This document shows positions 21,515 through 49,238 of a stretch of DNA of 64,000 nucleotides, one piece after another. Made by a program: the position numbers and the translations under genes. A model generated the notes under the pieces. It was not told the origin of the DNA and searched no databases. It was given only the letters and a program-made list of their open reading frames with translations. This DNA comes from Dromaius novaehollandiae (lineage: Eukaryota; Chordata; Aves; Casuariiformes; Dromaiidae), in NCBI RefSeq assembly GCF_036370855.1, contig NC_088098.1, positions 140,884,721 through 140,948,720 of the forward strand. Reading direction: 5' to 3'. Position 1 is the first letter of the stretch, and the number at the start of each line of letters is the position of its first letter.

Positions 21515-24500
21515 GTAAATTAATAAACTCCTAGGTATAGGACATGATCATTTTCAAAGGATATTTTTAAGGATTTAATCATCTACTGTAAAGTTTTTTT
21601 AAAATGAAATATTTTAATTGTTGTTTTTCCTTCAAAGTCCTACTTCTTATAAAGGAACAGGACTCACATATGTGTTTTTCCTCAAAGAAAATTGTGAAAC
21701 CTAGACAAAAAATGTTTATGAAGCAAATATTTCTTTAAAATCTGTGTTCAGTTTATAGTAGAAAATCATGTGGACTTTCTATTTACATAACTTAAAACAT
21801 GAAGTCCATATGTGTGTGAATATTGAGTTATATGCAACCAGATGTACTTTATTTCTAGTATATGCGCTTTCCATAATCATTGTGTATTACAGAGGGTTGT
21901 TATCTTGGCTAGAGGTTTTAATCATTGTCATCTTGTCTAGAGGTTTTAATAGGCTTTCTTAAGCAAATGTATAGTCGCATCCTGTTGTGAAAGTCCATCA
22001 TCCATAAGAATGATGGACTGTATCTTAAAAGTAGGAAAGCAACGCACAAAAGCTTGCTGAGTGCCAGTGGAGGATTAACCCTAACAAATTTCTATTCTAA
22101 TATTCTTTATGCATGTTTTCTTTCCAGAGGTGTAACCCTTTCCTTGCCATGGAAGTAGTGTCATAATCCATAAGATCTCACAGCAAAGCAATCTTCAGTA
22201 GCACTTTCATAAAAGATTCTCTGGGAGGGCAGTAGCTTTGCTTTTTTTTCTCCTCCTTAGCTTAAGGCTGCTTTGCGCTCCTGAAGTACCTTTAGAAGAT
22301 CAGGAGTCTTAATCTATTGTCTAGTATATGACACACAACAATTATTTAGAAGATTTATGTATTTATTTATTTATTTTGAGTCCTTTTTTAATTTAAAAAA
22401 TACAGTAGCCACTAAGTGGTTTGTTTTCATGCTCTGACTTGGCTTTAATATATGTAGAAGACCAGGCCTTGCTAAATGTTAAGATGAAATGTTTCTTTAA
22501 TATTTGGAATTACAAGATGCAGCATTCTTTGGGTAAGTGAAGCTGTTAGATAAATTTTTATTCCAAGTACACTTAGGTTTCAGCTTTCAGTATTCCTCAG
22601 ATAACCTTTACCAGGCCTCACTGGTAGAACTTTGACCATTTTTCATTCAAATGATAGTCACAGGCAAGAGCTCATTTTACCACTGACATTTTTTCCTGCT
22701 AGGATACAAACTTAGCTTGCAGAGTTATCTATACTTCTGTTGCTTTCATTAGTACATTCTTCCCTGACATCTTTCTTCTTTTTTTTCTTCTTTTTTTTTT
22801 TCCGTTGCATTTTGTATGTGACTTGATATTAGGCAAGCTCTTCTATGTTGTGCAGAGAACCTTATTTGTATTCTCTTCAGCTCTTCCTCTTTTTCTGTAG
22901 CCTTTGACTAGTATTTCAGTTTCAAATTTGCTTGGTATAATACAGACTTTTGAGCTTAATTTCCTATATGACGAGCACAGCAGCTAGCCTTTTCTTAGCT
23001 CAAGGAGATTATTCTGCTTATTCTTGGCTTCTGGGTCTGAGTATTTATTCCCAGCCTAGTCCTATTTACGAAGTACAAATTCTAAGTTAAAAAAATTCTA
23101 AGTAAAAAAAACCTGAGTTTTTACTTTTTATATTTGTGGAAATGAAGTCTGTATTACATTGTCTGTTTTTTTTTCTTGAAAATGTCATCATGTTAGTATG
23201 AATTGAAAAATGTCCTGAAATTCTTAGCCTTTTAAAATTTTTCTAATAACTTTTTAGTCATTCTGTCATATTGTTTAAATGGAAAATTATGAGAACTCTC
23301 TGCAGAGGGGAGGAAAATACTCCTCAGTTTTCAGGGAATTTAAGTAAAGGCAGTGCTGTCTACCAATAGAAAATACTTCATTTTGATGTTTTATTTTCTT
23401 TGAAATTTGTATTAACTTTTCCTGTCAATATAATTACATCATCAATTATTACAAAAAAACCCCCACACTGATATATAGGGAACATTTCTAACCATTGAAA
23501 TATTTGATATCCACAAATATAACTTTCATACCAATTAGGGTTTTTTTCAGAGATGGTTAGACAAGCTATAATTAGGGCTTTCTCCATGTTCCAGTCTCAA
23601 AGCTGTAATACATCCTTTTGTGAACTTTGAGTCTAACACCAAGAATGGCTTGTTTTGACTATTGCTTTTCTATCACAACAGCTTGCAAACGTCCTTCAGT
23701 AGTATCTTGAATTTTTGTTGCTGTTGAAAAGGCAAGGGACTTGAGAATCCTAGGGACAGATTTTCAGATGTATGGAGGCCTACAAAGTTGTGGATAAGTA
23801 CCTATTCCATTCAGAAGTACCTGATCAGGTTAGATCTCAAAGGTTGCTTAAATCAGTGCAAATAGTTGCCATTTCTAAACATGTTATCAGTCACTATTTA
23901 AAATTTCGATGCTTTGTTTAAAGCTTTTAGCACTGACAATTATAAACAATTCATAGCTGTAAGTAGAAGTCGTCCCTTTTGGCAGCAAAAATTGAAAGTC
24001 AAGGTATGATTTGTTCATAACATGTGTGATAAGGAAGGTAGTTTTCTGTTATTCTTCTAGGTCTGGATTCATCCAGCTTCTGTTAGCCTTATTTCCCTGC
24101 TACTTTAGTCACTTTATTAAGGCACTTTAGATAAAAGGATAGTAATTCTTAGGTGTTTCTATAATCTTTAGGGGTTTGTGAGTTTCTTGTCTCTATTGAG
24201 AGAGAGAGAGAGAGGTGCTGAAGATTTGAATCATGGTCTGAATGTGCCTCTTCTCCTCCTGGCTGACCTTGGAGGAGCCTAACATTAAAGTGGAATGCAT
24301 TCAAGACCTATTGCATACTCCTAGTTTTATGTATTTGCAGTGAGAAGCTGGCTTGGAATTGGCAATGACGAGTAAAGCACCTGCTTCCTGGGGTAAAAGT
24401 ACAAATCTAACTCAGAATCTGATGGCAGCTTCACGTATGTGAAATGAATTAGCATGAATCACTGTAGTGATTATTGCTTTAAGAGTATGTACCTCTTATC

Positions 24501-27500
24501 CCTGACTAGCATTTTGAAATATCTTTTAGAAGGCTATATAAGGAAAGTGGATGCAGGGACCATTTCTGTCTGTCACTTAGGTGAGCACACTGACATACCA
24601 CTGATACAAGGAAGTTAAGGTGCTCCAACCAATGTTCTCTTTATCTTGTAATATACCCTACCCCAACTTTTTCCTGTTTCTCCTTCCGTTATGTCTTGTG
24701 ACCTCCCTCCTGGATAGGGCACAACAGCTTGTCTTTTTTCTTTTTCTTCCCCCTCTGCCCCCCCCACCCCATGATGTCGATCTTTTATTTAGTTACAGGA
24801 ACATATTTAGTATGTCTTCATTCAATAAGCTAACAAGCCCAAACCGAGATATGTGCAGTTCTTATATCTTGTAAATATGTGGTTGTTAGGTGCATGTGAG
24901 TGCAATATATTTATTGAATAAACCACTTTCAGAAAGTCAAATAAGATTGAATTGTAGGGTTTTTTCCCTAAGTCAGTAAAATTGGAACAGAAGTCTTCAT
25001 GAAAGGGCAGAAAAATGTATATGAATACTGAATAGTGAGTCTTAAGCATTCAGAAGCACAATTCAGGTTTTTAGAATCTTTTTATTAAAAAGTAAACACT
25101 ACGTATTCTTTCACTTTCCTTTCAGAGTTCTTTTGGCTCCTGTTTCAAGCTATTTTTCCACAGTCATTAAAGTCAGGTGTTTCAGCTTGGTTAAAAGAAG
25201 TTCTCTGTGCAGTGGAATCTGTAGCCTGGTTTCCTGCAGTTGTCTTTTGTTTCTTTATCTTCCATCAGTTTTAGTCGCATTCATTAAATGTGTGTATTTG
25301 TGAGTGGCGTGTTTTTTGCTTTAGTGCAAACCTTTTTAAAGTTTATAGTCACCTTGAAATAATTATGTCTATGTTTAGTACTGAGGTAATGTTTAACATA
25401 TATTGTGGCTGTAGACTTGAAATACAAATTGTCGTTCCTGTAAAGATGTGGTTCAGAGAATTGATTATCTAGCAGTGGTCATACATAGCAAAATCGCCTT
25501 TAACTTTCCTCGATTGTTAATAAGGGATATTCTTTTTTAAATTTATTTATTTAATTAGGGATCTTATATATGTTTTCTTGCAAATTAATTCTTATAGAAG
25601 GATCAACAATTTATTATGCATATTTTGTTACAACCAAGCACATATAGAAAAATATCTTAGTCTGATCTTGTAGCTCACTCTTGATTGAAATTTTAACTGT
25701 TAGTACGTTTTAAGTACTACAGTTGGACATGCTTTCCATAACTAAAACATCCTTAATGGTGAATATTTTAATTTTCAGGAATGTAAGCAGTTTGCCTATG
25801 AGTTTGCAGAGGAAATTAGAAAATTGGACTTTGGTGCGGTAACGCCTGGTTATGATTTCATGAAAAGACTTAGGTACCTGTCTTAATATATCTCTTAAAA
25901 TTCACTTTTCTGTGAAGGTCTCTAAATTAAAATGAAGAGTGCAGATGCTTTTTCTATACTCTGGGGAGCTGAGCACTCTTTCTTTCTCCCCTAAAATATT
26001 TATAAACTTTTTAATTAATGATGGTGAATAATGTTTATCATTTTCTTTACTTTAGGGGAGGCATAGAATCTATTCTTCCTTCTAATGCTCATGAGATAGC
26101 TGAGAACCGGCTCTATGTGTCAATCACTAACACCAAAAATGGGGAAAATTATTTGGTTTCAAGTTTTGCTTCCAGGGAGGACCTCATTAAGGTAATGAAG
26201 TTGCATATTGCTTCTTTAAATAAAAATGCATAAGTGTCTTCAAGGCAGTATGTTAGGGAGTATGTTATTGTCCATGGGGTAAATCATCATTTTACTGAAG
26301 TAATCACTTAGATTACAGTGGCGCTACCTGCATAAACAACAGAAGCAGAATTTGGTCCTGCAGTTGTACAGACTTTGCTAAAATTAATTTTTTTGTATTT
26401 CCTTCAGCTGCCTTGAAAGTATTACTTTATAAGCAAATTCTATTCAAAAAAAAAAAAAAAGAAAAAGAAATAACAGGGCGACTAATGGTTACAGTAGATC
26501 AAAATCTCCAAATTTGGTCAACACTTCTATAAGTCTTTTAATATGTTCTGTCACAAAAGAAAGTAAACAAAAGGAAGTTCCTGTTTTTTGGAGGTTTGTG
26601 GGGTTTTTTTGTTTAGCCTTTCCAACACATCCTACAAATCCTTTGGAGGAAAGGGTGTATTGTAATGGTAAGTCCTATATATAAACTGTATATACAGCTG
26701 GAAAACATATCTTTTTCTTTTACTCTTCATCCCTTTTCTTTTGAGTACTACTTTTAAAATTTGGATCAGGATTGTAAACTTACTCTGATGTTGAAAGGTA
26801 GGAGGAATGCAGATGTATGTATCTAGAGGAGATGTTCTTTCCTTTCTGGAACCTCTTAATTTTAACAATTGATTATATTTTAGAGGAGGGTATCAGGCAA
26901 TATAGCACAAATGAAGGAGGAAATGGAAAAAGTAGGGAGCTTTGAAGAGGAATTCCTTCTTTTCCTATCTTTCTGGACACTTGGAATTAATGGGAGGTGC
27001 TTGATAATTAACACTCTTAAAGAAAAAAAAATTCGTTACCAAAATCTGAAGTATACATCAGAAGTCTGTCTTTAAAATACAATTTTTTTTTAATTTTGAC
27101 CCTATTATGTTTTACGCAGTCCGTCAATTTTCAAAATTGGTAGTACTCAGTCATGCAAAGATAATTATGCAAACAGTTCATTTCAAACTATGCCCTTGTG
27201 ATATTTCTAGTTAAAATAGCCAGCAGTGACAAGCATAGACACTGTTCTGTAAATTTATGTTCCTTTCCAGTGAAATCTTCTAACCTGAAGACAATTATAG
27301 TCTTCAAAACAATCGTGAATAGATATATATTTTATATTTATATACATGTGTGTATATAAGTATATTTATATGTGTGTGTGTGTGTGTGCGTGCATTTATT
27401 TAGTTAGTTTTTCAATAGTTCTTTTGTTGACTTAAATATTTCTGTACCATTTTGTTCCGTATGCTAGCAGTGGAATGGGTTGGAATGAGAATAATAAAAG

Positions 27501-30500
27501 TTCCAATCAGTTGCTTTTTGGAATACATTCATACGCTTGCTTGTCTGTTCTTTTGCTGTATCTCATAATACAGGGTTTTGTAGATGCCTTCAGAGGTGCA
27601 TGTATCATTTTTTCATCAGACTGAATGTTAGTTGCTGCCTTGGTTCCATAGAGAACAGAGCTGGAGAGGACCTTGTTAGTTTATGTAACCCTATTATTTT
27701 GCCCCAAAGCATAATCAAGTGTATCCAAATCATGCTGGACAGACAGTGTTTTATAACAGCAAAATTTCCGTGCACTCTGCCAGAGATCCTTCAGCCTCCA
27801 TAGGTAATTGGTTTCAATGCTTAACAAGCCTTACAGTTCCGGATTTTTTTTTCCTAATGGCTAAAGTGAGTATCTGCTGTTGCAATTTTAATGTCGTCTT
27901 GTCCTTTTCCCAGTGGACCTGGAAAGTAGTTAATCTTCCATTTTTGAAACAGACTTTACATGTGTGAAGAGCGTCATCATGTACCAGCATTCCTAGACCT
28001 GCAGTTCTTAAGCTGGATGTGAGAGAGAGGCATGTTACATGTTCGAGAGGGAACAGCACACAGAGCTCTATTGTATTTAGTCTGAAATCACTGGAAAATG
28101 GAGGAAGCACTGAATGGGAGTTCACATTGGTCTGTTAGGGTTAAGAAAACGCTGAAAGAGTTAGTTCTTTAGACTTATCCTTCCTCTCCTCATTCCTGAG
28201 GCCTAAGTTACTTTATAAGGTGGGCCAACTGCTTTCTGCAGACTTCTTGAAAAGAATTGGCGGTTTGCAGTGGTCATCTGTTTTGACTCTGTTTTCTTTC
28301 ACTAAACCTTTTCTTTTTCTTTCACTAAACCTTTTCTTTTGTCCTTATTCCTCCTAGTATAGGTGGGCCAAATTTAGTGGGATAGAACTGAAAGAGAGAG
28401 GAGAAAGGAAGATGGGCAGCAGAATACATTGGGCTCTTAGGAACCCTGCAGGATGTCACTTTTAAAGGTCTGAAGAGGAATGGGTTTAAAGTGGACATTT
28501 TCTTATGGTTGTGTGAGGGAAAGGCCTGTCTTAGAGAAGAAGCTACAGTTTCACATTTGAAAAATAAGAACCTTTCTGTCTGAGCCCAGGCAAAGCCCTG
28601 GGGCTTCAGGACATTGGGTAAAGTAGGCAAGAAAGAATTCTCAAACTGGGAGTTAAGCTTTCATTTAGAGCCTTGATTGGAACTTGCTTGAGGGGGAAAG
28701 ATGTTTAATACTGAAAATAACTTGTTGTAAAAAGAAGTACAATTATACCTAAAAAGATCAAACATTATTTTTCATAATCTCCATATTTCTTTTGGACCTG
28801 ATTGGCTTGCACACTGTATGTACCCCTGTCTGTGACCTGCTTGTGTCCCAAATTTGTGTCTCATGCCTGCATGCAAGCTCATGCATGCATATATATGCAC
28901 CAGAGTCATATATATGAAAATTTCTGACATATTGCACTTCATGTGCACATCTCCCCATCCTCTTTGAAATGCTGTATACTAACTGCAGCTATATATATGC
29001 ATACTATATATATGTAGATATTCACATGCGCACACACAGAGATAAATTGTTATGAATTGGTAGAAGAGGGGTGTGTATGTGCATCCATATGTAACAGAAG
29101 AGATGCCCCAGTTTGAAAAATTTAAGAACTGCTGTAGACAGCAGTCTAGGCTTACAGTAGAGCAAACAGTAATTTGTTGATACTTGAGCATATTCAATGT
29201 AAAGTGTTGATGCTGATGAAAGTATATATGTGGATTTTCAGGCTGTTTATAGTATTTTGAGCATGTTGTATTACTTACAAAATCTGATTTATTAGAAGAG
29301 AAAGCACTGTATGTATGTATATACCATACCAGTGAAGTGATTAGTTCAGTTTCTTTTTTTTGACTGTATATTGTATATACTGTACTGGATATTGCATGTT
29401 TTTCAGTATGTGTATATTTGATTTTTATAAAATGATAGATTTACTTCACATTGTATAAGGCTAAGTTGACGGTCTTATTCAATAATAAGATAATTGATTT
29501 GTGATATTTTGTTTTCTTTGAGAGTTGTTATTGTCAAGTGATTAAAAAACAATAGTTTTAATCACATTTTGACATAGCACAACAGTTTGATGCTAATAAG
29601 ATGACTGGTTTTATATGAAATTAATATGTTGATTAATTCTATTCATCTAATAGAGATAAATATGTATGAAAATATTTATTGGTTCAGAAATATTTTATTG
29701 CCTTTTCTTCACTCCTCCACTCCTCCCTCTTTCTTCTTTCTAGGTCCTGCTAGCAAGTAGTTTTGTGCCAGTATATGCAGGAATTAAGCCAGTGGAATAT
29801 AAAGGAGAGGTAATTTTTCATTCTGTTTACATACTTATAAATATTTTTTTTTGCAGGAGAATTCTTTGTTTGCGAGGTAACTTTGATCTCGAGGAAGGGT
29901 AGATGAGAATTACAGTACTGTATCCAGTAGAATAGTTATTGCTTCTGCAGATGCTATAGGTAGACATATATCGATATCATTCATATTGATTGTTCTTACA
30001 AAATTGTGGGTGCTGAAACTGAAGTGGTCTGTAGCATGAAGCTGTTTCATAAAGATAATCTGTGTGGTGCTTAACCATGGGAAGAAGCTTCTCTTGATAG
30101 AGACACTTCTCATGATTATCTGTGTTACCAATGTAAAATGGTCTTTGCAACTTAAAGATGAACTGTTCTGCTTTTTTTTTCTTTTTTTTTTTTTTTTTAA
30201 TGTTGGAATGATAAAGGAGATCTTGGCTGGTCTTGGGAGATTGGACACTGCTGGGGTAAATTGGTGTCTCTGTGTATGCAGTGTAGTTCTGTTGAGGACA
30301 TAAGAACAATGGTTTATCAGCCACCCTCAAATCTGTTACCTCTGGACAAAGATTATTTTTGTGTCACACAGAGTCATGAAATTTTGAGAGGCATACATTA
30401 ATACAATAAAACCGTCTCATAGTTGCCTGTACTTGATTTAGCTCCAAGAACTTTTTTGTCTTTTTTTACCTAAATGTATTAACATTTTAATAATTCTTTC

Positions 30501-33500
30501 AACTGTTTAGTCTGTTTGCAATCATTTCCCCTTCTAAAAGTTATTACTAGATACTTTATCTTTTCTTGAGAGGTATCAAAATGATGCTTTTAGAAAATCT
30601 TTCATCCTAGCAGATTCTCCATCACCACCCCGCAACCCCGCTTAAAACCCCTTTTCCTAGTATTCATGTACATTTGTCTCTAGCAATTATATTTCTAAGT
30701 AGCAAGAGGGAGTTATGTCAAAAAGCTTGTTACCTTTAGAATTATATACAGCAGTACATAACAACTAAAAAGTCTGAAGGGTTCACATCACCATGCCTTC
30801 AAAGTTCCCAGGGTTTAGATATTTTGTTGATTGGCATCTTTAGTATGTTCCTTGTGTAGTTCATGGGGTGCATGTACGTGGATGTTTGAAGTTCATTCTG
30901 CCATTATTTAAGGGAACATTGTGTCTTTGTTAAACTTTTTGTGCTGTTTTTTCAATTAAGAAATTGAAAGTTTGGGTCAGAGATTAGTTGTCCAAAATGT
31001 CCTGGTAGATAGCAAGTTGATCATGAGCCAGCAATGTGCCCCTGTGGCAAAGCAGACAAATGCTATCCTGGATTGCGTTAGGCAGAGTGTTGCCAGCAGG
31101 TTGAGGGAGGGGATCCTTTCCCTCAGTTCAGCCCTGTTGAGGGGCTCGAGTACTTGAGTACCTTTGGGGGCTTCCAACTGCAAGAGAGATACGGAGCTAC
31201 TGGAGCAAGTACAGTGAGGGACACTAAGATGATTAAGGGACTAGAGCATCTCTTTTATGAGGAAAGGCTGAAAGAACTGGAGCTGTTTAGTCTGGAGAAG
31301 ACTGAAGGGTAATCTTATCAATGCATATAAATACCTGAAGAGAAGGTGTAAAGAGGATGCAGTCAGACTTCTCAGTGGTGCACAGCAATAGGGCGAGAGG
31401 CAACAAGCAGAAACTGAAACAGAGGAAGTTCCATCTGAACATAAGGAGAAACTTCTTTACTGTGAGGGTGACTGAACACTGGAACAGGTCGCCCAGAGAG
31501 GTTGCGGAGTCTCCTTGTTTGGAGATAATCACAAGCCATCTGGACAGGGTCCTGGGCAATGTGCTCTAGGTGACCCTGCTTCAGCAGGCCATTTGAACTA
31601 GATGATCTCCAGAGGTCCCTTCCAACCTCAACCATTGGCTCATACTGAAATTAGCTAGCATACCTGTAGTGTGCACAGCTGGAGACTGGACTTCTGGGAT
31701 GAACCAGCTAAATTTCGTGATAACGCAGACATAGCATCAACCTGTTTGTAGTATGTTTTGTTCTGGTTTGATAAGCCTGAAAATAATCTGAAGGAAAAGG
31801 AAGTGTACGACCAAGATAAGTTAGGCAATCTGTTAATGGTGTTACATGACTGGGCTATTTCTGCATTTGCTCTGGCTATTTAGGTGCCCTTGGCCTAGGT
31901 TTCTAGTAACAGGGGTGCAGTACTGAGCTATGCATAGAATTGGCTCTGTGCATACCGTCTTGTATTGAAACAACCTTTTCCTGGATGCAGTAGGACTACA
32001 TTCATGTAGTCATGGGCAGAATTTGTTCCATGCAAAATTACCTTTCTTTCCACTGGTTTTATGTCCCCAGAATCTATAACAAGGTTAGTCTTTGACCTAG
32101 ATAAATCATCACCAGATAACTGAGTTGACTGTATCTGATGATGACACTGTAGTTCATGATGCTGTAGTTCTTACAAGGTGGCTTTGCAAATCTATCTACA
32201 GTTACTGGTAAATGTAGGTTCCACAAGGTCCAGCCTACATCCTCAACTTCAGTGTCTGGCTCGGTTTTCACTGCACGTTATTTCAGAACTTTCTCTGTCT
32301 TTGCACCATGTTACAAAAAGGAACTAATTCAGAAGTTACCAGGAATATGCCTCCTCAGCTAAGAAACATTTTTCAGGATTGATTAATAGAATCACAAGAA
32401 GCTAGGATATTAGGTCTTTTTGTTTAAAGTATAGAAATTGGGCGCCTGTGTGCCACAAGGAACTCTGGAGTCAAAATATTTTCAAATGAAAGGCAGCTTC
32501 TCCCAGGTACTTGAAAAAAAATAAAAAATAAATGGAGGGCATCAGACAGGAAGAACAGAATCTGCAAAAGATAGCGCTTAATAAATAAAATACTGCCCTT
32601 GGTAACATTAAATGTTTTGATTAAAAAAAAAGTTGAAGATACGTAAGAGAAGAAAAAAGCTAAATAATCAGAACAAAAAGCCAATTTATACTGCAAGGAA
32701 TGTTGCATCTAAATCAATAATAAGCAGCTATTTATAGGAAAGAAACAATAAAGAATAGGTTCAATGTGATAAGCATTGTTGTTAGCAGTGTTGTGGCTTT
32801 AATCATAGGAGTCATAGTAATGATGTAATGGAATTTGAGGAATTTGAAAGATCGCTTTAGATAGCTTTATGATTTTTTTTGCAGGTTTTTAGTTTGTTTT
32901 GCTTTCCTAAGACAAAATATTCTCAATGCTAAGCATTCAGAAATGTGATTTTTGTAGGAAGTGAAGGAATTCAATGGTGGATAGTGGTTATGGACATCAG
33001 GAGCTTTTGTTGTGAGTCAAGCTCTCAAAACATACCATGAAATAAGAGGGTGAGAAGGGCCATGAAGACTATTGAATGTGAAAAGTAATAGCTTATATTT
33101 TAATTTCAGGAGTGTAAAAGAAGTGGGAAACAGCAAATTTTGTCTGAGTGCATGCCATGTGGGCATCTGGCAAGTAGAAAAGTGAGAAAGTGGGGGTAAT
33201 AATAATGAAAAGGTGGTTGCAATATATCCATGTGAAAAAGATTGAGTACATGTATCAGCAGGTATGGGAGTTGTCAGTGGAAGGAGGGGCAAGCGATAAA
33301 AACATCATGTGGTTACATGAACTCAGAAATGTGGCACTGAGAGAAAATCTATACCTATAGAATTAAAAGAAGGCTTGCCTTTTAAGCAGCTGAGAGGTAT
33401 CTGTACAGTCGAATGACAGACCTCAGGGAGTCTCAGGGGCTTCTGTAGAACAAATACTCTACCCTGAGATAACGCTTGTTGTATGCTAATCACTGCACAG

Positions 33501-36500
33501 AATACTAGTGTCTTGCCAACAGTTGAAGACCTAATTTAGAGGCAATAAACAATTTCCAGATAGTATACTTTTTCAGGAGGTGATTTCTTGCTACTTTTGT
33601 GACTTAATTCCTGTGCCATTTTCCGTAAGAATTTTGCATGAAAACTTGCATTGTTTTGCCCTTTCATAATGGTCACTTAGAATAATACATACAGCAAAAA
33701 AGCAGTCTTCTGCCTGATTGGTGCTGGAGAGTACGAGTGCAACTTGCCTTTTTTTTAATGATGCTCTGTATTGATAAATAATGAAGCTTGAAGATAGTTT
33801 CCTGCAGTATTCAGTTCACCTTTGGGGAAGTCAGACCCTTAAGAAATACAGAAATGCATCTTGTAATATTATTTCTTAGTGTGTTTCATCATGGCTAGCT
33901 TCAGGTATCTGCACTAGTCTATATCTCACATAGTCAGTGTGTTTCCTTTGATTAATGGAGAGAAGAAAGCGCCTTTTCAGCATAGTTCAAATCAAATGTA
34001 AATACCTACTTTTGGATAAAGTGAATCATGCACTAGAAGTGTTTCTGCATCCTTGACTGTAGAGGGGGTGTAGGATGACTAATTTGGCTGTAGATGTGTA
34101 AAGTTTGGTGACATTCATCTGATCACCAGACCTCATGTACAATGTCAGCAGATGCATCTAGCCGAAAGACTGCCGTTGAGGTTTGGTTTATGCATCTAAG
34201 TATAAAAAGAAATACTGTAAGCATATTGGAGAGAAGATAAGAGAATCATATTTAATATAATGTTACAATAATGGTTATTCTAATAAATACTATAAATTAT
34301 GGTTATGAAAATGTTTATTTAAAGAAGAAACTGTGAAAAGAACTATGCAAACATATTCGAAGAAACAGTTTATTTGTCATCTTTAACTTTCTTTGTGTTT
34401 TTATACTGGAAAAATGAGATAACTGTTTTTGGCAGCTGTTTTTTACTTTCTGTAAATACCCTGTTGAGGTTGTGCAAAATCTCTACATTACTGATAAAGT
34501 ATTTCAAGTGCGTAACTCTTAACATAGCAGCTAAAAATTACACAACCAGCAAATCAATATGATGTGTATGCAGATGAAAACTTGAGGGATGTTTATAGCT
34601 GTCCCCGGTTATGAGGAGAAGAAAGTTGGCTGTGGTTCCTATTGAGATCAGGCCTGTGCCTCTGGACAGTCTGTAGATCTAAGCAGTAGATGGGACTCTA
34701 AAAGAACTTCACTGTTTTTTGTTTGTTTGTTTTTCCTTCCTATTCTCTTCTATATTCCAGTCCTGTAGCAGACTTGATGTCTGCTTCCTCCCAGGTGCCA
34801 GAGATGTCCAAATCTTCCCCCCTTTATCTTCCTCTCTTTTCAGCTATTGCTGTCTTTCATTGTGGTTGATGGCTTTTTGTGCGCAAGAAAGCAAGAAGTT
34901 CTGGGAGATTTGATCTGGGAGCTTGTTCAGTCAGTTTACCTGCACGTACAGATTGTCCAGCTCCTAGTCTGCAAAAAAGTAATTTTTTATAGAGGTACAC
35001 ATTATCTAGTATGGTTGCTGTGTAATATTAACAATCTTGTCCTTTCATGTGTGTGTTCAGAAAAAAAATCTGTGTTTTTAAGCTGAAAAAGATTTGTGTT
35101 TTTTAAGCTATATAGGGCTATTTTGTTAATAGATTGAACAAGCTGTATCAGTAACCTGTTAAAAACATCTAAGGGTCTGGGAAGCTTGAAATATGTTTGT
35201 AGAGTATATCAAACACTTATTGATTACATACTGAATATGTAAATTACAGTTCATTGGTTTTCATGCCTCTTGTGCTCAAGCTGCTTATTCATGATATTCT
35301 GAGAAGGAAACTTGTAAGTTTTCTTGAGGATGGGATGGAGGAGACAGGGACAGGAAGGATGAAATATTCAGTTATGACCATACTATACTAAGGTTTCCTT
35401 GAAAATGTCTTTATTTTCTGATAGAAATGGGTTGACGGTGGCCTCACCAATGGCCTTCCTATCTTACCTGTGGGACGAACAGTGACAATTTCTCCTTTCA
35501 GTGGTCGATTAGATATCTGTCCACAAGATAAAGGACATGTGGATCTTTATGTTAAATTTGCAAAACAAGATATAATGGTGAGTTCCTTGTTTACTAAATA
35601 ACTTTGGATGAAGGAAAGGTAGTTGAGCAGCTAACTTTATGCTTAATTTTTAAGAGTTTATTTTGTGTTTATATATCATGTTTAAGTAATGTGATATCTT
35701 GGTCCTTTGTGTTGTGCATATGGAATATAACTTGTCCTTAAATGCAGGGGAAGAAAAAATGTAGTATAAAATTTGCAAGAAAGATAGAAAACCTGTGATC
35801 TGGTACAAAATTGAGCAGCTATATCACAGGCTATTAAATTTAATCTTATTAAATAATGTAGGCTTGATTAAAATATCATCTGTCTTTGGCTAGGCTGAGT
35901 GTTTCCAGAAAAATAAGACTTCTGTAGAAGACCTCAGGAGAGGAAAACTCCAGAACACCCCTTCATACTTACTTGCTGAAATAAGCTGCTATAACTGAAT
36001 TTAAAAGGTGAATTTAAGCTTCACGTATGAAATGGTGTACAAGGACTTGTCACCTCATTGCTCAAGAAAGTTTATATTAAATTTTTGAACATTGTGACCA
36101 CAGCACTTCCAGAAATCTTGTTAAATGTTTGAGAATGTTTCTGTATATTGAAACATAGGCTAAGACTGATTTTTATGACCTCCTTTTCATCATTGGCATT
36201 TCTGTCTTTGCAAGCTTTTTCCCACAAAGTCTGACCACAGTATTGTTTCTTTTCACATAAGGAAAGAAAATACTGAATAGCAGTCGATCTAGCATTGATC
36301 TCAAAAAAACAGCCCTGCTTAGCAACAATCCTTCATTATTTGCTATATTTTTTGAAGTTTCATTTAGATGGTTCTTGATGTGTTTTATTAATTCTGAGTA
36401 AAATTAGTGTTACATAATGTCATTCTAAATTGAATGAGTTTCTGAATTTTTGTAGTGTTTCGCAGGGATTTAAGCATGATAATACTTGGTAAATGGTCAT

Positions 36501-37709
36501 GAGGTATGAAATTAATAATTTTACTGAAATATATGCATCTCTTGCTTTATATTTCTTGGTTGTGGTTTGCATCAAATATCCATCTAGAGGGGAAAAATGA
36601 GCTGATAAGCAGATTAATTTTGAGATAGAAAATTAATTGCAGAATTACCTTCTATGATTCTACAGCTGCAGAGTTGTGGTGCAGAATCTCTGGCATCATT
36701 TTAAGTAGTTCTATTTGAAACACCCGTAGCTTTTAGAGTTTTAAAAATTCAAAATAAGAATAAACTTTTGCAGCAGTATCCAAATCTGCACAGCATGGAG
36801 AGTTACATATATCACTGTTTACCTAGATTGGAATGTGAACAGTCTTTTGTCTCTTTGGACCTCCTCCATTCATTAGTGTCAAAATTTGAATAATTGCTTA
36901 GTTCAAATAATGGAGTGATTTTGACGGTATGTTGCAAAATTGTATATAAGTAAGTATGTGGCTTAAAGATATATCAAGTTAATCATATAAATGAAGTGTC
37001 CAGATCTTTATTAAATTTAATTATATATGTAATTTTGTTTTAAGCAATTTAATACATGTCTTTATTAAAGAACAAACTTTGAAGTCTTTTTACGCCATGA
37101 AAGTAAGTGACCAGTTGAGAACCTGAGTAGTTCTTAATTTGTTGGAAACACAAGCTACATTTATACTCATATATTAAATGTTTCCTGGGAATGTTCCCAA
37201 GAATGTGGTTATTTGTGCTAGTAAGCTGTCAGAATATTTCCTGGGACAAGTTTAGCATGTGGCAGCTACCACTCCCCCAAACAATTCTGGGAATGTTTTT
37301 GTAGTTAAAATGTTTCAGAAACCATGAGCAGTTTTACAGGCAGACAGTGTGTATTGGAGGCTGTGAGTTTATTAGTGTAGATGCAGACTATTTGTGCCAG
37401 ATCATCTCAGTGCTCAGTAAATCTCCTGGGCATGATTAATTTACTGGTATAGACATAGCCACGCTGGCCTTTTCTACATATGCTATATGAAACAGATGAT
37501 AGGACTGATAACAACACTGTGAAGTGTAACATAATTTGCTTTAATAAACCAATTTACAGCACCTCTCTCTGTTGCAGCTGTCTTTGGCCAACCTGGTAAG
37601 ACTTAATCAAGCTTTGTTCCCACCAAACCAGGAGAAAATGGAATTGCTGTACCAAAACGGATTTGATGATGCTGTACACTTTTTACTTAAAGAAAACTGG
37701 TATGAATAG
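21335..37709 (+). CDS. PNPLA4: Patatin-like phospholipase domain protein 4 (six coding exons)
   Basis: Joining 21335-21514, 25779-25873, 26056-26191, 29744-29809, 35425-35577 and 37578-37709 gives 253 codons plus stop, the length of known PNPLA4. PNPLA4 (GS2) is a small patatin-fold lipase with reported triacylglycerol and retinyl-ester hydrolase and transacylase activity. The N-terminal glycine-rich oxyanion loop is at about residues 9-20 (AACGFLGIYHLG). The nucleophile Ser43 lies in GASAG, and the catalytic Asp163 in the DGG motif. The protein is nearly all patatin domain, with no signal peptide or membrane segment visible. All introns have GT-AG ends and consistent phases (0, 2, 0, 0, 0). 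The start at 21335 matches the family start (MKH-NLSFAACGF) and has A at -3. No damage is seen, so the gene looks functional. Confidence 0.97.
21515..25778 (+). other. PNPLA4: PNPLA4 intron between coding exons 1 and 2
   Basis: About 4.3 kb without a supportable exon. It includes a 28-base-period tandem duplication at 21902-21950, a 10-bp-stem hairpin at 21992-22019 and a short AG run near 24200. Confidence 0.85.
25779..25873 (+). CDS. PNPLA4: PNPLA4 coding exon 2
   Basis: Encodes residue 61 to the first two bases of the codon for Arg92 (ECKQFAYEFAEEIRK and FGAVTPGYDF blocks). The acceptor ends TTTCAG, and the donor AG/GTACCT leaves phase 2. Confidence 0.95.
26056..26191 (+). CDS. PNPLA4: PNPLA4 coding exon 3
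   Basis: Encodes from the last base of the Arg92 codon to Lys137, including the conserved RLYVSITNTKNGENYLVSSF and SREDLIK blocks. The acceptor ends ACTTTAG, the donor is AAG/GTAATG, and it leaves phase 0. The intron before it is only 182 bases, the shortest in the gene. Confidence 0.96.
27371..27388. repeat. (TG)9 dinucleotide repeat
   Basis: Nine perfect TG units followed by CGTGC, embedded in TA/TG-rich sequence from about 27320. Confidence 0.9.
27640..27990 (-). mobile_element. Old CR1-type LINE fragment, antisense to PNPLA4
   Basis: On the + strand this reads as the reverse complement of a CR1 3' region: 'gagctggagaggaccttgtt', then 'catgctggacagacagtgtt', 'taggtaattggtttcaatgc', and 'cttaacaagccttacagttc' followed by a T-rich 'tttcctaatg'. 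Many substitutions indicate great age. Boundaries are approximate. Confidence 0.75.
29744..29809 (+). CDS. PNPLA4: PNPLA4 coding exon 4
   Basis: A 66-base exon coding residues 138-159 (VLLASSFVPVYAGIKPVEY and following), the conserved patatin segment just before the catalytic Asp. Long pyrimidine tract and CTAG acceptor; GAG/GTAATT donor. Confidence 0.96.
29810..35424 (+). other. PNPLA4: PNPLA4 intron between coding exons 4 and 5
   Basis: About 5.6 kb, the largest intron inside the coding region. It holds a T-rich run near 30172-30199 and the best-preserved CR1 copy in the window (30972-31640). No supportable exon. Confidence 0.85.
30972..31640 (+). mobile_element. CR1 LINE, 5'-truncated, sense to PNPLA4
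   Basis: The copy spans the end of CR1 ORF2 and the 3' tail. Recognisable blocks are 'agttgatcatgagccagcaa', 'tgccagcaggttgagggagg', 'gaaaggctgaaagaactgga', 'cataaggagaaacttcttta', 'gaacactggaacaggtcgcc' and 'gatctccagaggtcccttcc'. Better preserved than the other copies, so probably the youngest here, but ORF2 is interrupted. The usual terminal octamer repeat is missing; it ends near 'caacctcaaccattggctca'. Confidence 0.93.
35425..35577 (+). CDS. PNPLA4: PNPLA4 coding exon 5
   Basis: Encodes residues 160-210. It opens KWVDGGLTN, which contains the catalytic Asp163 in DGG. It is followed by the PILPVGRTVTISPFSGRLDI core. GATAG acceptor; ATG/GTGAGT donor. Confidence 0.97.
35578..37577 (+). other. 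PNPLA4: PNPLA4 intron between coding exons 5 and 6
   Basis: Exactly 2 kb of AT-rich sequence. I see no exon or recognisable repeat family in it. Confidence 0.8.
37578..37709 (+). CDS. PNPLA4: PNPLA4 coding exon 6 with stop
   Basis: Encodes residues 211-253, beginning LSLANLVRLNQALFPP and ending KENWYE followed by TAG at 37707-37709. The acceptor is a CT-rich tract ending TTGCAG. Confidence 0.97.
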   Translation: MSLANLVRLNQALFPPNQEKMELLYQNGFDDAVHFLLKENWYE

Positions 37710-41400: not shown

Positions 41401-43869
41401 CCTCACTGTGCTCCTTCTACTTGAAGGTGACTTTGGGTCAGTGACATCTGCCTTCAGTTCATTTCTTCACAGAACTGCATCTTTGGCTCAGATAGACTTC
41501 ACACATTGCATTTTAAAGGATGGAATGGCTCTTTCTCCCTACTCTAAAGCTATATTTTAAAATATATAGATATTTCCTGTATTTAACCCCCTTAATATTT
41601 AATCCAGTTTATAGTTTTAACTTTAAAATGAAGAGTTAAACGTGTATTATATAAAACTAGGATTTTATTTTTAATTTGTGTGTAATTTAAAAAATTCCAA
41701 ACATAGGAAACTTGTGTGTCTGATGTCCTTGCTGCAGAGCTAGTTTCTCTAGTAAATAAATGACTTGCATATTTATATCCACAATTGTAGGTTATTTACT
41801 GACTCTGGAAATCTAAATATGTACAACTACAATTGCCTTCAGGACCCAGTTTGGGTAGATGAGGAGGGAAGACCATTATTTCATTCCTGTTGTGTAAATT
41901 AAAAAAAAAAAAAAAAAAGTGATTTTTTCAAGACCTGATTATCTTTCCCGTAGTCTGTCTGTCTCTCTGAAGGTCACAATTCACTTCTTCTTTGTGTATC
42001 AGCTAGCAGTTTCATTTAAAAAAGTTGAATACTTAGTTTCTTAAATGAAGATGGTTTTTATTGGCATCTTTATTCATAGAATGCTTAAAGAGAAGATAAA
42101 TGTATAATAACCTGGAAAAGTTCCACAGAAAGCCTTGCTAAGCTGGCAATAAGTTTGATGTTATAGAATATCGTACAATCATTAGACTTTATAGAAGGGG
42201 AAGATGTATCTTTAATTCACAGCAGAAAACATGGTGCTCTGGGAGCATTCAATTTCTTTTTCATATCATCTTCCTTCCAGTGTCAGTGAAAGTCCTTATT
42301 AGCGACATGTCTACATATTCTTGATTAAACCCATTGTTTACTGGTCTGGATGGCTTGTCGTAAATCCAGTCACTTGGTGAGGTGGCGCTGCTATCTGTGT
42401 TTCTTGACCTGTTCTTGCACTTTTTACAGCCCTGATGAATCTGTTGCAATATTTCACAAAATAAATTGTTAAGCAGTAAAAATGTGTTTTTGTCAGATAC
42501 CCCATCTTTTTAAAGAATGCATATCTAACTTAACTCAGATAGCAACCTCCCTTTTTATTATGAATTGTTTGTAATGTTGTTATGGATATCACAGTCAAAA
42601 TGAAACGTGAATACTAATTTTAACCACATCTTCATGAATTGACAAACTATTCGTTATTCTTCTGAATAAATTCTAGTAATACATTAGCTAAGACACTATA
42701 CCTAAGTAGTTAACGTTTTCTGCCTTATCTGGTTCCAGCTTTGCAAATGAGTGGAATATGATCAAATGTAGCACCATTATGATATATTAGAACCATTACG
42801 GTATGTTTTTTATTTATATAATTTGTGTAAAATTACAGTAATAACTAGTATTAAACAGTGCTAAACTAATATATTTATTTTGGTGAATTGGCTCCTTCAA
42901 TGCTGAATTCTAAGTCTTTGCAGGTAGCAGAAGAAAAGTAATTCATATTGTACTGGTATGTTCGAGAAATAGGTAGAAAATCTGTCTGTATACCAATGAC
43001 TACATTAAATACTTCTCCAATCCCCAAAACTCTCTTAAAGTGTATGTATATTGTTACTTCAGAAAAAATAGTGTGTGGCAGGAGGACTTTTTTTGTTCAT
43101 TCTGTATTCTTAAGTAGTTTAAACAAGTTTTTGGAGAGCAGATGAGTGTCTTCTCTCAGGGAAAATCCACAAGTGACAGCTATAACTTTTTCTCCACAAA
43201 ATAGATACAACTATCATGGAGCTTTCATTGGAATATCACATTGCTGTGACTCAGTCTAGACTTGGAAGCTGAATAAGCACAGAAAAAGTTTGACAGAAGT
43301 AAGAATCTTACCTCTAGAAGAGGTTTATTGCTGTGAATCCGTAAAAAATTTATATTCTATGCTGAGATCTGAGCACTTTAGTCTTTGAGCTAGGGTGAGC
43401 TCTCACTCAGTATGTTAGCTTTCGCAAGTCCTCTTTTGAACTCTATTTTTTCTATAGGAAACTTGGATTGAGAACTCCTGAAGGTCATGGGGTGCCTATA
43501 ATTAAATATTACAACATAGGGCAGGATATAACACCCCCCTCCCTTTGTAAAAATCTGGGCATAAGAATACCAACAAGTGGGAACAACTGAGAGTATTTTA
43601 GACTGCTTAAGAAAAGGCAAGTCTGATCTCTCTTAGGAAACATGAACTCCTCATAGAAGTTGCCTGAAGGATTCAGCCAGCCATGACATACTGGATTTAA
43701 GCCATGGCATATAAGGGCCAAAGGGCCTTTGGGTCATGTAGTCCCCTTTTCATTATTTCACACTCTTATTTTGACATAATATATTTGCATGACATGAAGC
43801 ATTTGTCATTTAGTAAAGAAATGACTTTTAAGAAGTTATAAACTTCCTAACTTTATAAACTTCGCTGCC

Positions 43870-43903
<34 letters not shown>

Positions 43904-43948
43904 TCTGCTACTGCTAATTGTACTCACAGTGACTCATTTCAGGAAAGC
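38446..43948. other. Intergenic region between two convergent genes
   Basis: AT-rich spacer between the 3' end of PNPLA4 (+) and the 3' end of the immunoglobulin-type gene (-). It contains A18 at 41901-41918 and T26 at 43870-43895. The part nearest 43948 is probably the 3' untranslated region of the minus-strand gene. A minus-strand AATAAA at 43329-43324 is one possible signal. No other coding sequence is supportable. Confidence 0.6.
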
Positions 43949-44137
43949 TTAAGTGGGCTCATTCTGTATATTCAGATCTGAGGCTGCTTTTGACAGGCTT
44001 CTGCTGCTGTTGTATCTTAGCAAGGTTTGACTTTTTACCTCTTCTCTCACTGGCTTGAGTTTACTCTGTCTTACTAAGTACACATCCCTTGTTCTCCTAC
44101 TGCCTGAACTACGTGAACATTTCTGGTTTTGATATGG
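43949..44137 (-). CDS. IgSF gene exon 4 (probable): cytoplasmic tail
   Basis: This open stretch enters in the needed phase 0 after CCTCAAAG and encodes 62 residues (169-230) to a TAA at 43951-43949. It is strongly basic next to the membrane (KCSRSSGSRRTRD), fitting the positive-inside rule. It contains Tyr170 in YQNQ (a Y-x-N, Grb2-type pattern), Tyr188 in DVYLV and Tyr210, but no canonical ITIM or ITAM. A stronger-looking upstream acceptor ending TTTAAAAG would give only an 18-residue tail. An extra exon between 44137 and 46160 is also possible. Confidence 0.5.
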   Translation of the reverse strand, partial: PYQNQKCSRSSGSRRTRDVYLVRQSKLKPVREEVKSQTLLRYNSSRSLSKAASDLNIQNEPT

Positions 44138-47100
44138 CTTTGAGGTAACAGTACTTAACAACCAGCTTTTAAAGAAAACAAAACCCAAACCTTACTTGAC
44201 CTAGAACAATCAGATACCTTAAATGTCCTTGCAAGTCTTGTGACTTACTAGTCATTGATGCTGTGTCTTTTAATAATGAAATTTTGGGCTGTGCAACAAT
44301 ATCAGCAGAGAGGGACCCATTGCCAAATTCAGTAATGCTTATGTAATCTCTTTAAACTGTGAAGAGTGAGAAAGAGAAGACAAGATAAAGCAGGCCCTGC
44401 CTCTGAGTCAGGGCCTAGGTATCTGAAAGATCTTTCTTTCTGGACTTAAAATAGCCACAATTTTGAAACCGTGTAGAGTCCCCAAGAACTAAATTTTCTT
44501 CTTGTGAACCTGTTTAGTTTGGTTCCTGTCCCCTCCTGGTCCAACTTAGGCAACATTTACTAACTTCTAAGGCACTTTGCAATGCTGGTTTTTGAGGGGC
44601 AAGGTTGTTGGTGAACCATGAGAAACTTTTTATGTCTGTTTTAAATGATAATCTTTGAACTACAGTTGCAAGTAAGGAACCTGTAAATATGGAATAGGTA
44701 TAACTAGAGTACATTGTACTTTTCAAGGTTAGGAATGAGGGTAGCAAAGCCCAATATATATACCATGCTTTCAAAGATTGTGTGATGCTAACTGTACAAT
44801 CGAATCAGTTCATCAGTGTTAGGAAAAGAGAAGCAACATTAAAATAAAGAACTTTTTGTGTCGTGATCAGCAGTCCACACCAGATAATGTTCTCTGACCA
44901 CCTGTAGCTAAGATTATTCAAAAATACTCTTTGTTGATTAGGATCCAATATTAAAACACAAATAATTTTATCGAACTTGCTGGGAAGGAGGTCATGAGCG
45001 TATGTAAACTGAGGCTGAGATGTAAGTGAAGCAGAAGTTTTTAAAATATTATGGCGTGATTTCATCTTTAATCTAGAACCTTGAGTAGAAGAAAAGCCAC
45101 CTAGAGGCTTTGGAGGAAATCACAATCAATGGAAAGCAGTCTTCAGCCTATCATGAGGTGGGTAAAACATGTTTGCATTTTGCGTTGGCATTGATGGTTT
45201 GGTTTAGATGGCTGTTTGATCTATGGATACCTAAGAAAAATGACTACTTTTATTAAATAAGGGGGGGAAAGGGAGATGGGAAGTTGCCTTAATGAAACAG
45301 GAACAGACCAAGAGAATTGAGACACGATGCCCTAACATTAGAGAGGGTGAGCCTACCAACAGGAATACTGCTCTGGCAGCTATTCACTAGTAGGAAACGC
45401 ATCATTTGCATCAAATTATAGCATACCTCAGACTTTTTCAGCTTAAGTTAATTTCAGTCCAAAAGACTTCATTTACATAAAGAAGGTTCCCATATAGGAT
45501 CAAAATACAGCTGTTGATTAAAAGCTGTCTTTTTAGTTTTTGGTTTCATAAAAAGTAATTGAAAAAAAATTGAGAAAAAAAGAAAATTCGATTACAGATT
45601 AAAAAAAAGATATTTCTAAGATATTTCTATTATTTCTAAGTAGGAAACAGAACCTGCTGTATGGAAAGAGGGAAGGATTTCTAAAGTACCATAGGAAGCA
45701 TAAAAAAATTGTCCTGAGTTTGGACTGAGTTGTTTTAATGAAAAAAATATTTTCTCCTTCTCTTCCAAAATATTTCTACATTTTCAGCTTGTCCCTAATC
45801 AGAAGTTGCCAGTGTTCTTCACTGCTGGCCAGGTAAATGCCAGGCTTTGGCTGGAGAGTAGGACATACGGACTAGTGGTTGGGAGTGGGCATAAAACCCT
45901 GGCATGGTTGGTTTGTTGGAACATGAGCAAGACAGAACATGAGCAGACATTCATGTATTTCCAGAGGAATTAATGAAATTAGGAGCTTGCGCCTGGAAGT
46001 ATGAAGGGAGCAGGACTCTTCAATCTTCAGTTAAGAGAAAATAGAGCAACTTTTTACTTTGCTATGGGTGCATATTCAGGCCACTCATTCGTTTCTTTCT
46101 GTCAGAAGATGTCACCCATATTTATGTTTGTAGTATTTATTTTGGAAATTATTACTTACAATGAAAGCTATGATAACTGTGGTGACAAAGATGGTGTATC
46201 CAAGAAGAAGAAACCAACCCCACCAGGTCTTGTCTGATCTTATACAGTCTTTGCATTTTAAGTCTGAAATAAAGAGGAAGTAAATTAAATATTTGAGGAA
46301 CAAAAATTTGCTTTTCTGATTGAGGATTGACCAGGCAGCAAAGTTGTCCTTCTATTCATTTTTATTACATTTTCTTTCACTTTTTTTTCAGGCTAAAAGA
46401 TTAAACTTCTCTTGAGAGAACTATTATCTTCTTTTACTTAAGACTTGTGAAATTTGTGAACCTATTTTAAACTATTTATTAAATTGATAGTAAACAAAAT
46501 TCTCAGTTTATTAGAAGAACAACATCCGCAAAGAACTTTGTTATGTAGTACAAACTTAAGTAATGATGGAAAAAGCCAGTTTAAATGACAGTTATCTTAC
46601 TAAGTTTCAGAATTTTTTTTTTTTTTTTTTTTTTTTTTTGGAACTAAACCAAAGTTATCCTTGTGGTGTGATAATAGCCACTGACTTGTTTTTTAGGTCC
46701 TCAGAGGAATTGCATTGGACAATTGCAAAATATAATGTGAAATCAAGAGTTAGGGAGACGCTTTGCAGTTTTTAATGTATGTGTAGTCAGATTTATCTGG
46801 AAAGTCTACATGGGGAAAACCTGGCTCATCTAAAATAGCGTATATCTCAGTCACTGAAGTCACAGTCCCCATCAGGATTACAGATTTTGTTTTCATAATA
46901 TGAGGATGGAGAAGAGTTTTAAATTATCAAAAATGATTTTACAGTTAGAGGGAAAGAATCTTTCACTTCCACATATCCCTGCTTTCACACACCCTTTTTC
47001 TTAAAACCCTTCCACTGCTTAATTTACTGTTGATTTTTTTACTAAATGGAAAGACAAACTGCCTTCTTCAGACAAGATCATTGGCTTACAAAGACTGATG

Positions 47101-49238
47101 AAAAGGATATGAAAGGTTGTCAAGGATTTGTGAATTTTGTATAGAGTAAAGTAAAGATCCAGCAAGTGTTTGTGGAGAACTTTAAGAAAATGTGTTTAAA
47201 AGTCTGCTATAAAAATGGATAATATTGCTGAAACAATCATTGTTCTACTGCTCAGTGAACTGCTTCAGACCTAAAGAAAAGTCTCTGTCCCTGAGATGTG
47301 TCTGTCTAGTTGTATAAATTGCTCAAGCAAAAGACTGACTTTTCTTTATTAACCTTTTCTCTCTTACTCATACGACTGTAGGCTGCTTTTCCCCACCCTT
47401 CTCCTGACCGAGGTGAGTGGTAAGAGAGAATAAAATTGAATTAAAATTTAATTCACTTTACGTACATCAAATCCATTTCTGTGACTCCCAAGTGCTCCTT
47501 ACCATGTACGGTCAGGTTGGTGCCACTTCCACGTTTGCTCTGGACGTTCTGAGTTAGTGTCACATCACAGAAATATGAATTACTGGCACTGTGATCAACA
47601 TTGCTCAGTTTCAAGATGGAGAATCCCTTGAGTACGTTCTTTATAATGCGTACATGCGGCCTAGCAGCTCCAGTGCTTGACTGAAGACTCTGCAAATTAT
47701 TGTAGTCAGGGCCCTTCCTCCAGTACACGACTGGCATCTCGTTCTCCTCCTCTGGGTACTCAAATACACACAGCATCCACACTGTTGAGTTAAGAAGCAC
47801 ACTGGCATCTTCAGGGTATTGCACAACTGAAAGTTCTGGATCAGTGCTAGCTGTATGGTATAAATAAAGTACAAGTAAGTAAGCAAAGATACGCTCTTTT
47901 GGGAAGGTTTGTCTTCACCAGCTGAATATATGGGCATAACAGATATCTGGACATACGGGTAAGCCACAGCTGTAAGCGTATATAGTGAAATGTGCACCCA
48001 AGTGAGGCAAATGACAGTTTTGCCATTGTCTTCAAAGAAACTAATGTTTCATTCAGTGTTCAAATACAAATTAGTAAAGCTTTAGAAAGAGAGTTCATAA
48101 GCTTTGCCTAAGGAACACATATCGAATAAATTCTGTGGAACATATACGAGTTCCAAGACCAGGAAGTGATAAAGTAGGAAGAGTTGTGAACAGAAGCTTT
48201 GGACTAGATTAAATTTGCATACAGTTCATGTTATTCTTAAACTTTAGGGATGTCCAATACCAAAGCTTTGCTCTGGGAAATTTCAGGCAATATTTTCAAC
48301 TTTTAAAAGTTAAAGAAAATATAAACATACTTGTATAAACTTAAAACATTATTATCTAAGTAGCTAGACCTGATGTAAATTTTGTATTTCCTATGTATAC
48401 AATGTTTCATATGAAAATGAAGGGTGACATTAAAACTCATTCTGGCAACAATGTAATGAAAAAGCTCTGCAGAATATCCTTATTCTGATCAATGTGCAAA
48501 ATTTAATCGCTCTTTTCACAATTGCTCTTTTCACAATATTTTTAATGAAGGAGTTATACCACAAAATGCCTATTGCCAATAGCACAGATATGATTTACAA
48601 TATAAAATTGTATATCCATGCTGGGAATTTGATGCAGATCTGGGAAAAAATGGCATTTACAATCTTCCTAGTAGTGATGAAGAAGGCTAGATTCATATTA
48701 AAATGGAGTGAGATCGAAGGAAACTAAAGATCAGTATTATCTTTATTAAGAGCAATTTCAATACTGCATTCTATTATTTCAATACATCATTATTTAAGTA
48801 TTTGTGTATAGTCATATTTTGTAGCCCTTTATTATGGGCAGTAATCCTGGAAGACAAGAGAACACAGTGATAACTAAATGGAATAAAAATTAAAAATTAA
48901 ATAAACATAACAGTAGTGGGTGCTTTGGGGATAAGAAATTCTATGCTTGTATTAAAATAAATAAAAGGAGTAATCAAGCTTACTCAAACTCACTGTTTTT
49001 GATATTTTCTACATAATCTTAGTAACAGGTTCAATTTTCATTCTTCAATTTCTGTCATTTTTCAGCATTTAAAAATAAAGTTAAAACTGAGCAAATGACA
49101 CTTTTATCTTTGATTGAAAATTAGCACTGCTTTTCTCAATCAGTTAAAGTTTAGAAACTTCTGTGCTAAAAAGAAAATCCACTTACCTGTAAAGTGAACA
49201 CAGTAATATATCATAATTAATATACCAAGCTGCAACAT
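43949..49238 (-). CDS. Unassigned single-V-domain immunoglobulin-superfamily membrane protein
   Basis: Model on the minus strand: 49238-49187, 47850-47503, 46263-46160 and 44137-43949, about 230 residues. Exon 1 is a hydrophobic signal peptide. Exon 2 is one V-set domain: Cys45, the WRKG tryptophan Trp61, then Tyr110-x-Cys112, and a J-like G-S-G-T-N-L-T-V strand at residues 125-132. Exon 3 gives a stem with Cys137 and Cys140 and a 22-residue membrane span (147-168) without charged residues. Exon 4 gives a basic, Ser-rich tail. N-glycosylation sequons are at Asn38 and Asn129. Phases are 1, 1 and 0, normal for the family. The architecture recalls CD28- or NKp30-like receptors, but I cannot assign it. 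Absence of a charged membrane residue argues against pairing with ITAM adaptors. Exon 4 is the least certain part. Confidence 0.75.
44138..46159 (-). other. IgSF gene intron 3
   Basis: About 2 kb with no exon I can support. It would also include any additional cytoplasmic exon that I have missed. Confidence 0.5.
46160..46263 (-). CDS. IgSF gene exon 3: stem and transmembrane segment
   Basis: The acceptor TTTATTTCAG precedes 46263, and a GTAAGT donor occupies 46159-46154. The phase 1 entry makes Asp134. The exon reads DLKCKDCIRSDKT, then the membrane span WWGWFLLLGYTIFVTTVIIA ending FI. The stem cysteines could support dimerisation, as in the CD28 family (inference). Without splicing, the frame would stop 16 codons after the membrane span. 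Confidence 0.8.
46264..47502 (-). other. IgSF gene intron 2
   Basis: 1.24 kb between the V-domain exon and the membrane exon. It contains a T27 run at 46613-46639 and nothing else of note. Confidence 0.75.
46613..46639. repeat. T27 homopolymer run
   Basis: Twenty-seven consecutive T on the + strand inside IgSF intron 2. No polyadenylation signal is adjacent on the minus strand. Confidence 0.9.
47503..47850 (-). CDS. IgSF gene exon 2: V-type immunoglobulin domain
   Basis: The acceptor is a T-rich tract ending ATACAG, and the donor is GTAAGG at 47502-47497. The exon is 348 bases, phase 1 at both ends, as expected for one V domain. It encodes residues 18-133: B-strand cysteine in VWMLCVFEYPEEE, C-strand VVYWRKG, a D-x-SA-x-x-SYFC F strand, and GSGTNLTV for the G strand. 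Confidence 0.85.
47851..49186 (-). other. IgSF gene intron 1
   Basis: 1.34 kb of AT-rich sequence between the signal-peptide exon and the V-domain exon. A short tandem repeat of GCTCTTTTCACAAT lies near 48509-48538. Confidence 0.75.
49187..49238 (-). CDS. IgSF gene exon 1: signal peptide
   Basis: The ATG at 49238-49236 has A at -3. It encodes MLQLGILIMIYYCVHFT, a hydrophobic leader, plus the first base of an Ala codon, and ends at a perfect GTAAGT donor (49186-49181). Phase 1. Cleavage probably falls near Thr17-Ala18. A 5' untranslated part must lie above 49238, but its start is not visible. Confidence 0.75.

Follow-up and report, generated by a model that had tools for sequence, protein, structure and literature searches.

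A probable emu orthologue of CD28X, beside PNPLA4, whose ligand loop is altered

Structure of the receptor gene

In this study, we analysed a window of 64,000 nt of the genome of the emu, Dromaius novaehollandiae (assembly GCF_036370855.1, contig NC_088098.1, positions 140,884,721 to 140,948,720 of the forward strand), and a gene within it for a receptor with a single immunoglobulin (Ig) V-type domain. The receptor gene is real; it lies on the minus strand and most likely spans positions 42261–49238 of the window, and its product, if the tail exon described below is used, is most likely a type I membrane protein of 227 residues. By its position, we consider this gene quite likely to be the orthologue of CD28X, with changes in the loop that would contact the ligand. 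CD28X is akin to CD28 and ICOS, two switches of T cells, and was described in 2024 as a member of the CD28 family (Quiniou et al., 2024; PMC11599192).

The coding part of exon 1 (49187–49238, minus strand, 52 bp) holds the start codon and the signal peptide MLQLGILIMIYYCVHFT and ends in phase 1 at CAG/GTAAGT. Exon 2 (47503–47850, minus strand, 348 bp), which is entered and left in phase 1, codes for the Ig V-set domain. Exon 3 (46160–46263, minus strand, 104 bp), entered in phase 1 and left in phase 0, codes for a stem with C137 and C140 and for the transmembrane span. All three exons are open, GT and AG are present at the joints from 49187 to 47850 and from 47503 to 46263, and pyrimidines occupy 10 out of 15 positions before exon 2 and 13 out of 15 before exon 3.

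Comparison of the V exon with the Pfam V-set profile gave 30.7 bits (cut-off 26; E = 3.7e-7). The only cysteines of the domain are C45 and C112, W61 stands within YWRK, as expected for the core tryptophan, and the domain closes in a J-like strand, GSGTNLTV. A six-frame motif scan and alignment placed the F strand, the loop resembling complementarity-determining region 3 (CDR3) and the G strand (YFCDVTLTQNVQSKRGSGTNLTV) at 47507–47575 on the minus strand, with GxG kept and PPP missing. A V-type ending of the form YxC..GxGT was found only once in six frames of 194 kb, and when the V exon was used to search the 1.47-Gb genome at E ≤ 0.001, with 8 out of 8 first-look candidates scored, its sole match was itself, which gives a single copy at this depth of search. 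The membrane span is uncharged, with a hydropathy peak at residues 151–169, and contains YTIFVT (residues 156–161; 46181–46198, minus strand), which fits YxxxxT, the motif for dimerization in CD28-family proteins (Quiniou et al., 2024; PMC11599192). A search of the sequences of solved structures gave no significant match; of 12 pattern stretches in a viral contig collection and 75 in a prokaryote genome contig collection, none was confirmed as a relative; and Rfam gave no match at its gathering threshold within the window. AlphaFold2 modelling of the V exon alone reached a mean predicted local distance difference test score of 40.9.

A preliminary description of this DNA had proposed four minus-strand segments joined in phases 1, 1 and 0. 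The joints, the GT and AG dinucleotides and the open frames of exons 1 to 3 stood, as did the V domain with its J-like strand (through the Pfam V-set cut-off, an Ig-profile check that the description had itself suggested), the cysteine-bearing stem and the uncharged membrane span, but the proposed exon 4 ending at 43949 was not confirmed.

The better tail exon is probably 42261–42440 (minus strand, 180 bp including the TGA stop) rather than the segment ending at 43949, which it would replace; it lies beyond the interval covered by the preliminary description. Its product is IHQGCKKCKNRSRNTDSSATSPSDWIYDKPSRPVNNGFNQEYVDMSLIRTFTDTGRKMI followed by a stop, a predicted cytoplasmic tail of 59 residues (IHQGCKKCKNRSRN...NQEYVDMSLIRTFTDTGRKMI) with a basic stretch and EYVDM. 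The latter (42306–42320, minus strand) is a YxxM-type (PI3K) motif, and no other EYx[DE]M occurs when the same 194 kb are read in six frames. Two acceptors, both CAG, are available to the exon, one at 42440 with 6 out of 15 pyrimidines and an alternative phase-0 acceptor at 42431 with 8 out of 15, use of which would shorten it. Candidate poly(A) signals, identified by motif match, lie 45–199 nt past the stop on the minus strand (ATTAAA at 42216, AATAAA at 42074 and 42062), and such hexamers are common in the AT-rich window.

The choice of this exon rests on its tail motif, because its acceptors are no stronger than that of the exon proposed earlier. Between 37.0 and 46.16 kb, the minus strand has 15 [YF]xxM sites, three of them with Tyr, and only that at 42317 (NQEYVDM) pairs the E-Y-x-D-M context with a compatible phase-0 acceptor. 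The controls consisted of 300 dinucleotide shuffles at each of two acceptor thresholds. With at least 8 pyrimidines, which the real exon 4 passes via 42431 only, a YxxM tail arose in 99 out of 300 shuffles, Yx[DNE]M in 17, EYxxM in 2 and EYxDM in none; with at least 6, which 42440 passes too, YxxM arose in 148 out of 300 and EYxxM in 6, and neither EYxDM nor EYx[DE]M arose in any. YxxM by itself is worthless as evidence; it is the published EYEDM context that makes the motif of exon 4 strong.

The CD28X locus and the CD28 family

According to its report, CD28X occurs in sharks, rays, sturgeon, gar, turtles, birds and crocodiles and was not found there in teleosts, squamates or mammals; its neighbours in the genome are pudp, sts, anos1, nlgn4x and pnpla4, which form a block with it, and several lineages, mammals among them, have lost it (Quiniou et al., 2024; PMC11599192). 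The motifs given for the protein are YxCx6PPPx4/5GxG, EYEDM and sometimes YxxxxT, the PPP and the tail motif being reported as conserved, and its function is left to future work (PMC11599192).

All five cd28x synteny markers, located with human query proteins, are present within 1.54 Mb (140.367–141.903 Mb) of C1, the contig on which the receptor gene lies. ANOS1 is at 140.367–140.495 Mb, PNPLA4 and the receptor gene at about 140.906–140.934 Mb, STS at 141.16–141.25 Mb, PUDP at 141.303–141.351 Mb and an NLGN4-type gene at 141.787–141.903 Mb (84–89% identity); the NLGN4X query cannot by itself separate NLGN4X from other neuroligins, and its place on C1 is the best by E-value among 24 matches. 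PNPLA4 is the convergent neighbour of the receptor gene, with its coding exons on the plus strand at 21335–37706 of the window (six tblastn matches to human PNPLA4, of 71–87% identity).

The receptor shares with CD28X the ANOS1/PNPLA4/STS/PUDP/NLGN4X locus, the single V domain followed by a membrane span and an intracellular part (here encoded by a predicted exon), the GxG of the G strand, the YxxM tail motif in E-Y-x-D-M form, occurrence in birds and absence in mammals (Quiniou et al., 2024; PMC11599192). It also has YxxxxT, a motif that some CD28X lack. The preliminary description had regarded the receptor as unassigned and possibly sauropsid-specific; its position and anatomy fit a gene already described, which is reported from sharks, gar and sturgeon as well (PMC11599192). 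What lies at the locus is most likely a known gene in an unusual variant.

The three classical relatives lie elsewhere. ICOS, CTLA4 and CD28, told apart by reading their motifs, occupy 39.08–39.15 Mb of contig C7 (39.086, 39.11 and 39.15 Mb, respectively), and because these three sit separately the receptor gene is none of them. The V and membrane exons, to which the phase comparison was confined, measure 351 and 110 bp in CTLA4 and 354 and 119 bp in CD28 of this genome, and their phases match the 1, 1, 0 of the receptor gene. The receptor also has the GxG strand in common with CTLA4 and YxxxxT in common with CD28 (YTIFVT in the receptor, YSTLIT in this genome's CD28). In contrast to both, it has no MYPPPY loop and a different locus, and its pairwise V similarity to CTLA4 is not above that of shuffles (Z −0.1). 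Searches with PF15910 (V-set_2, ICOS) did not list the receptor at E ≤ 10 or E ≤ 1, whereas CTLA4, CD28 and ICOS of this genome pass.

Several points weigh against the assignment to CD28X. The CDR3-like loop reads YFC-DVTLTQ-NVQ-SKR-GSG, with YxC and GxG retained and a spacer of three; in comparison with the reported motif (PMC11599192), PPP is replaced by NVQ and the loop is one to two residues shorter. No YxCx6PPPx4/5GxG was found in six frames of the 194 kb, the rest of the ANOS1–NLGN4 block not being scanned for the PPP motif. In the tail, the reported EYEDM has become EYVDM (PMC11599192), the +1 residue being changed and the flanking E and D kept. The receptor lacks the second V cysteine pair that CTLA4, CD28 and ICOS of this genome possess, and the acceptor of exon 4 is weak, no stronger by its pyrimidines than that of the exon proposed earlier. 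The V-domain profile scores overlap those of non-members, and a wider profile ranks four non-members higher, so that the V domain is by itself insufficient for placing the gene. The altered PPP and EYEDM motifs appear compatible with fast evolution.

Some observations were made beside the main subject. In the V exon of ICOS (C7:39085782–39086108), the first core V cysteine seems absent (KLIFHNPK vs. QILCKYPD in human ICOS). A second V-set exon at C1:98360000–98360460 (plus strand, 36.3 bits) has a PPP loop (YMCQAACLIPPPY) resembling the position of the IP motif of CD28H and, at 34.3 bits, scores higher on the CD28-cluster profile than any other non-member. Its V end is soon followed by an in-frame stop, and no membrane exon turned up in a crude scan; this exon may be either a fragment or part of a divergent gene of the CD28 family. 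Near it, at about C1:98.367–98.371 Mb, an endogenous retrovirus has left open-frame fragments that are gag/pol-like. In the window, positions 12001–14000, 7–9 kb ahead of where the coding exons of PNPLA4 begin, have a GC content of 50.6% (vs. 32–41% in the other 2-kb steps) and are possibly the CpG-island promoter of PNPLA4. STS-like sulfatase matches form a tandem group on the same contig as STS (C1:143.676–143.748 Mb), and one sulfatase match has an equal score on two contigs (C33:45405916 and C35:59110024), which would be either sex-chromosome homologues or an unpurged haplotype.

Alternative readings of the locus

The emu gene could be a cd28x in decay, its frames still open and its loop without a ligand site, on the way to a pseudogene. 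The lost PPP, the shortened loop, the change from EYEDM to EYVDM and the weak acceptor of exon 4 all agree with this, as does the published remark that several lineages have lost cd28x (Quiniou et al., 2024; PMC11599192). However, the four exons are open with GT–AG at every joint, and both V cysteines, the core tryptophan and YxxM are retained, features that a random process would seldom spare together; we consider decay unlikely. Less likely still is that a different single-V receptor of the VJ type, whether CD79-, NKp30- or CD8-like, lies at the CD28X locus by chance. A V domain closing in a J-like GxGT strand is indeed shared with CD79B and NKp30. CD79B carries an immunoreceptor tyrosine-based activation motif (ITAM), NKp30 a charged membrane residue and CD8 a stalk, whereas the emu receptor has one YxxM and no ITAM in its tail, no charged residue in its membrane span and no CD8-type stalk, and the genes for CD79B, NKp30 and CD8 are at other loci.

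The remaining alternatives accept the receptor and differ in its tail. We give even less credence to a reading of exon 3 through its donor at 46159 into the short basic tail VSNNFQNKYYKHKYG, with no signalling motif, whether as the only form or as an isoform. Such a product is conceivable in that 15 residues are open past the donor before a stop (frame 46112–46351) and AATAAA occurs at 46141, but GTAAGT ends exon 3, a compatible exon with a motif lies downstream, and a conserved tail motif is described for CD28X (PMC11599192). Least probable of all is that the exon ending at 43949 is the true exon 4. It is an open frame of 80 codons whose product is basic, with many Ser and Arg residues, and its acceptor at 44137, with 9 out of 15, is in pyrimidine count at least the equal of the two acceptors of the exon at 42261–42440. 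Nevertheless, this acceptor has A at −3, the other phase-0 entries, at 44122 and further in, have 6 out of 15 pyrimidines, and the segment is without a recognised Tyr motif or other signalling motif, whereas 42261–42440 holds the motif expected at the locus.

Possible function and significance

Taken as CD28X, the emu gene probably codes, by analogy with its family, for a dimeric, PI3K-coupled receptor of lymphocytes; splicing to exon 4, expression, dimerization, PI3K coupling, co-stimulation and the ligand are inferred. On the pattern of the CD28 family (Quiniou et al., 2024; PMC11599192, together with general background), the receptor would stand on lymphocytes as a homodimer held by the stem cysteines and YxxxxT. 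Its V domain would contact a ligand on another cell, Tyr210 in YVDM would be phosphorylated and would recruit PI3K, and the protein may act as a co-receptor, probably a co-stimulatory one like ICOS.

Because PPP is missing, the ligand contact would not be of the CD28/CTLA4/ICOS type; with its loop altered and shortened, the receptor may touch its ligand differently from these three, or its contact may be weakened. PD-1 and human CD28H are members of the family that have ligands but no PPP. It is possible, and we put it forward tentatively, that CD28X in this bird lineage dropped the proline loop that CD28, CTLA4 and ICOS use to hold B7 proteins and kept an intact single-copy gene, a dimer motif and a PI3K tail, that is, that it switched its ligand. 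A ligand switch and early decay cannot be told apart from one genome.

In summary, analysis of the emu locus provides exact coordinates for the exons of a bird gene that has a signalling tail, which makes CD28X directly testable in a bird. Through its altered loop, nature offers a test of whether PPP is required for binding by CD28X and of whether the ligand of CD28X is a B7 protein at all.
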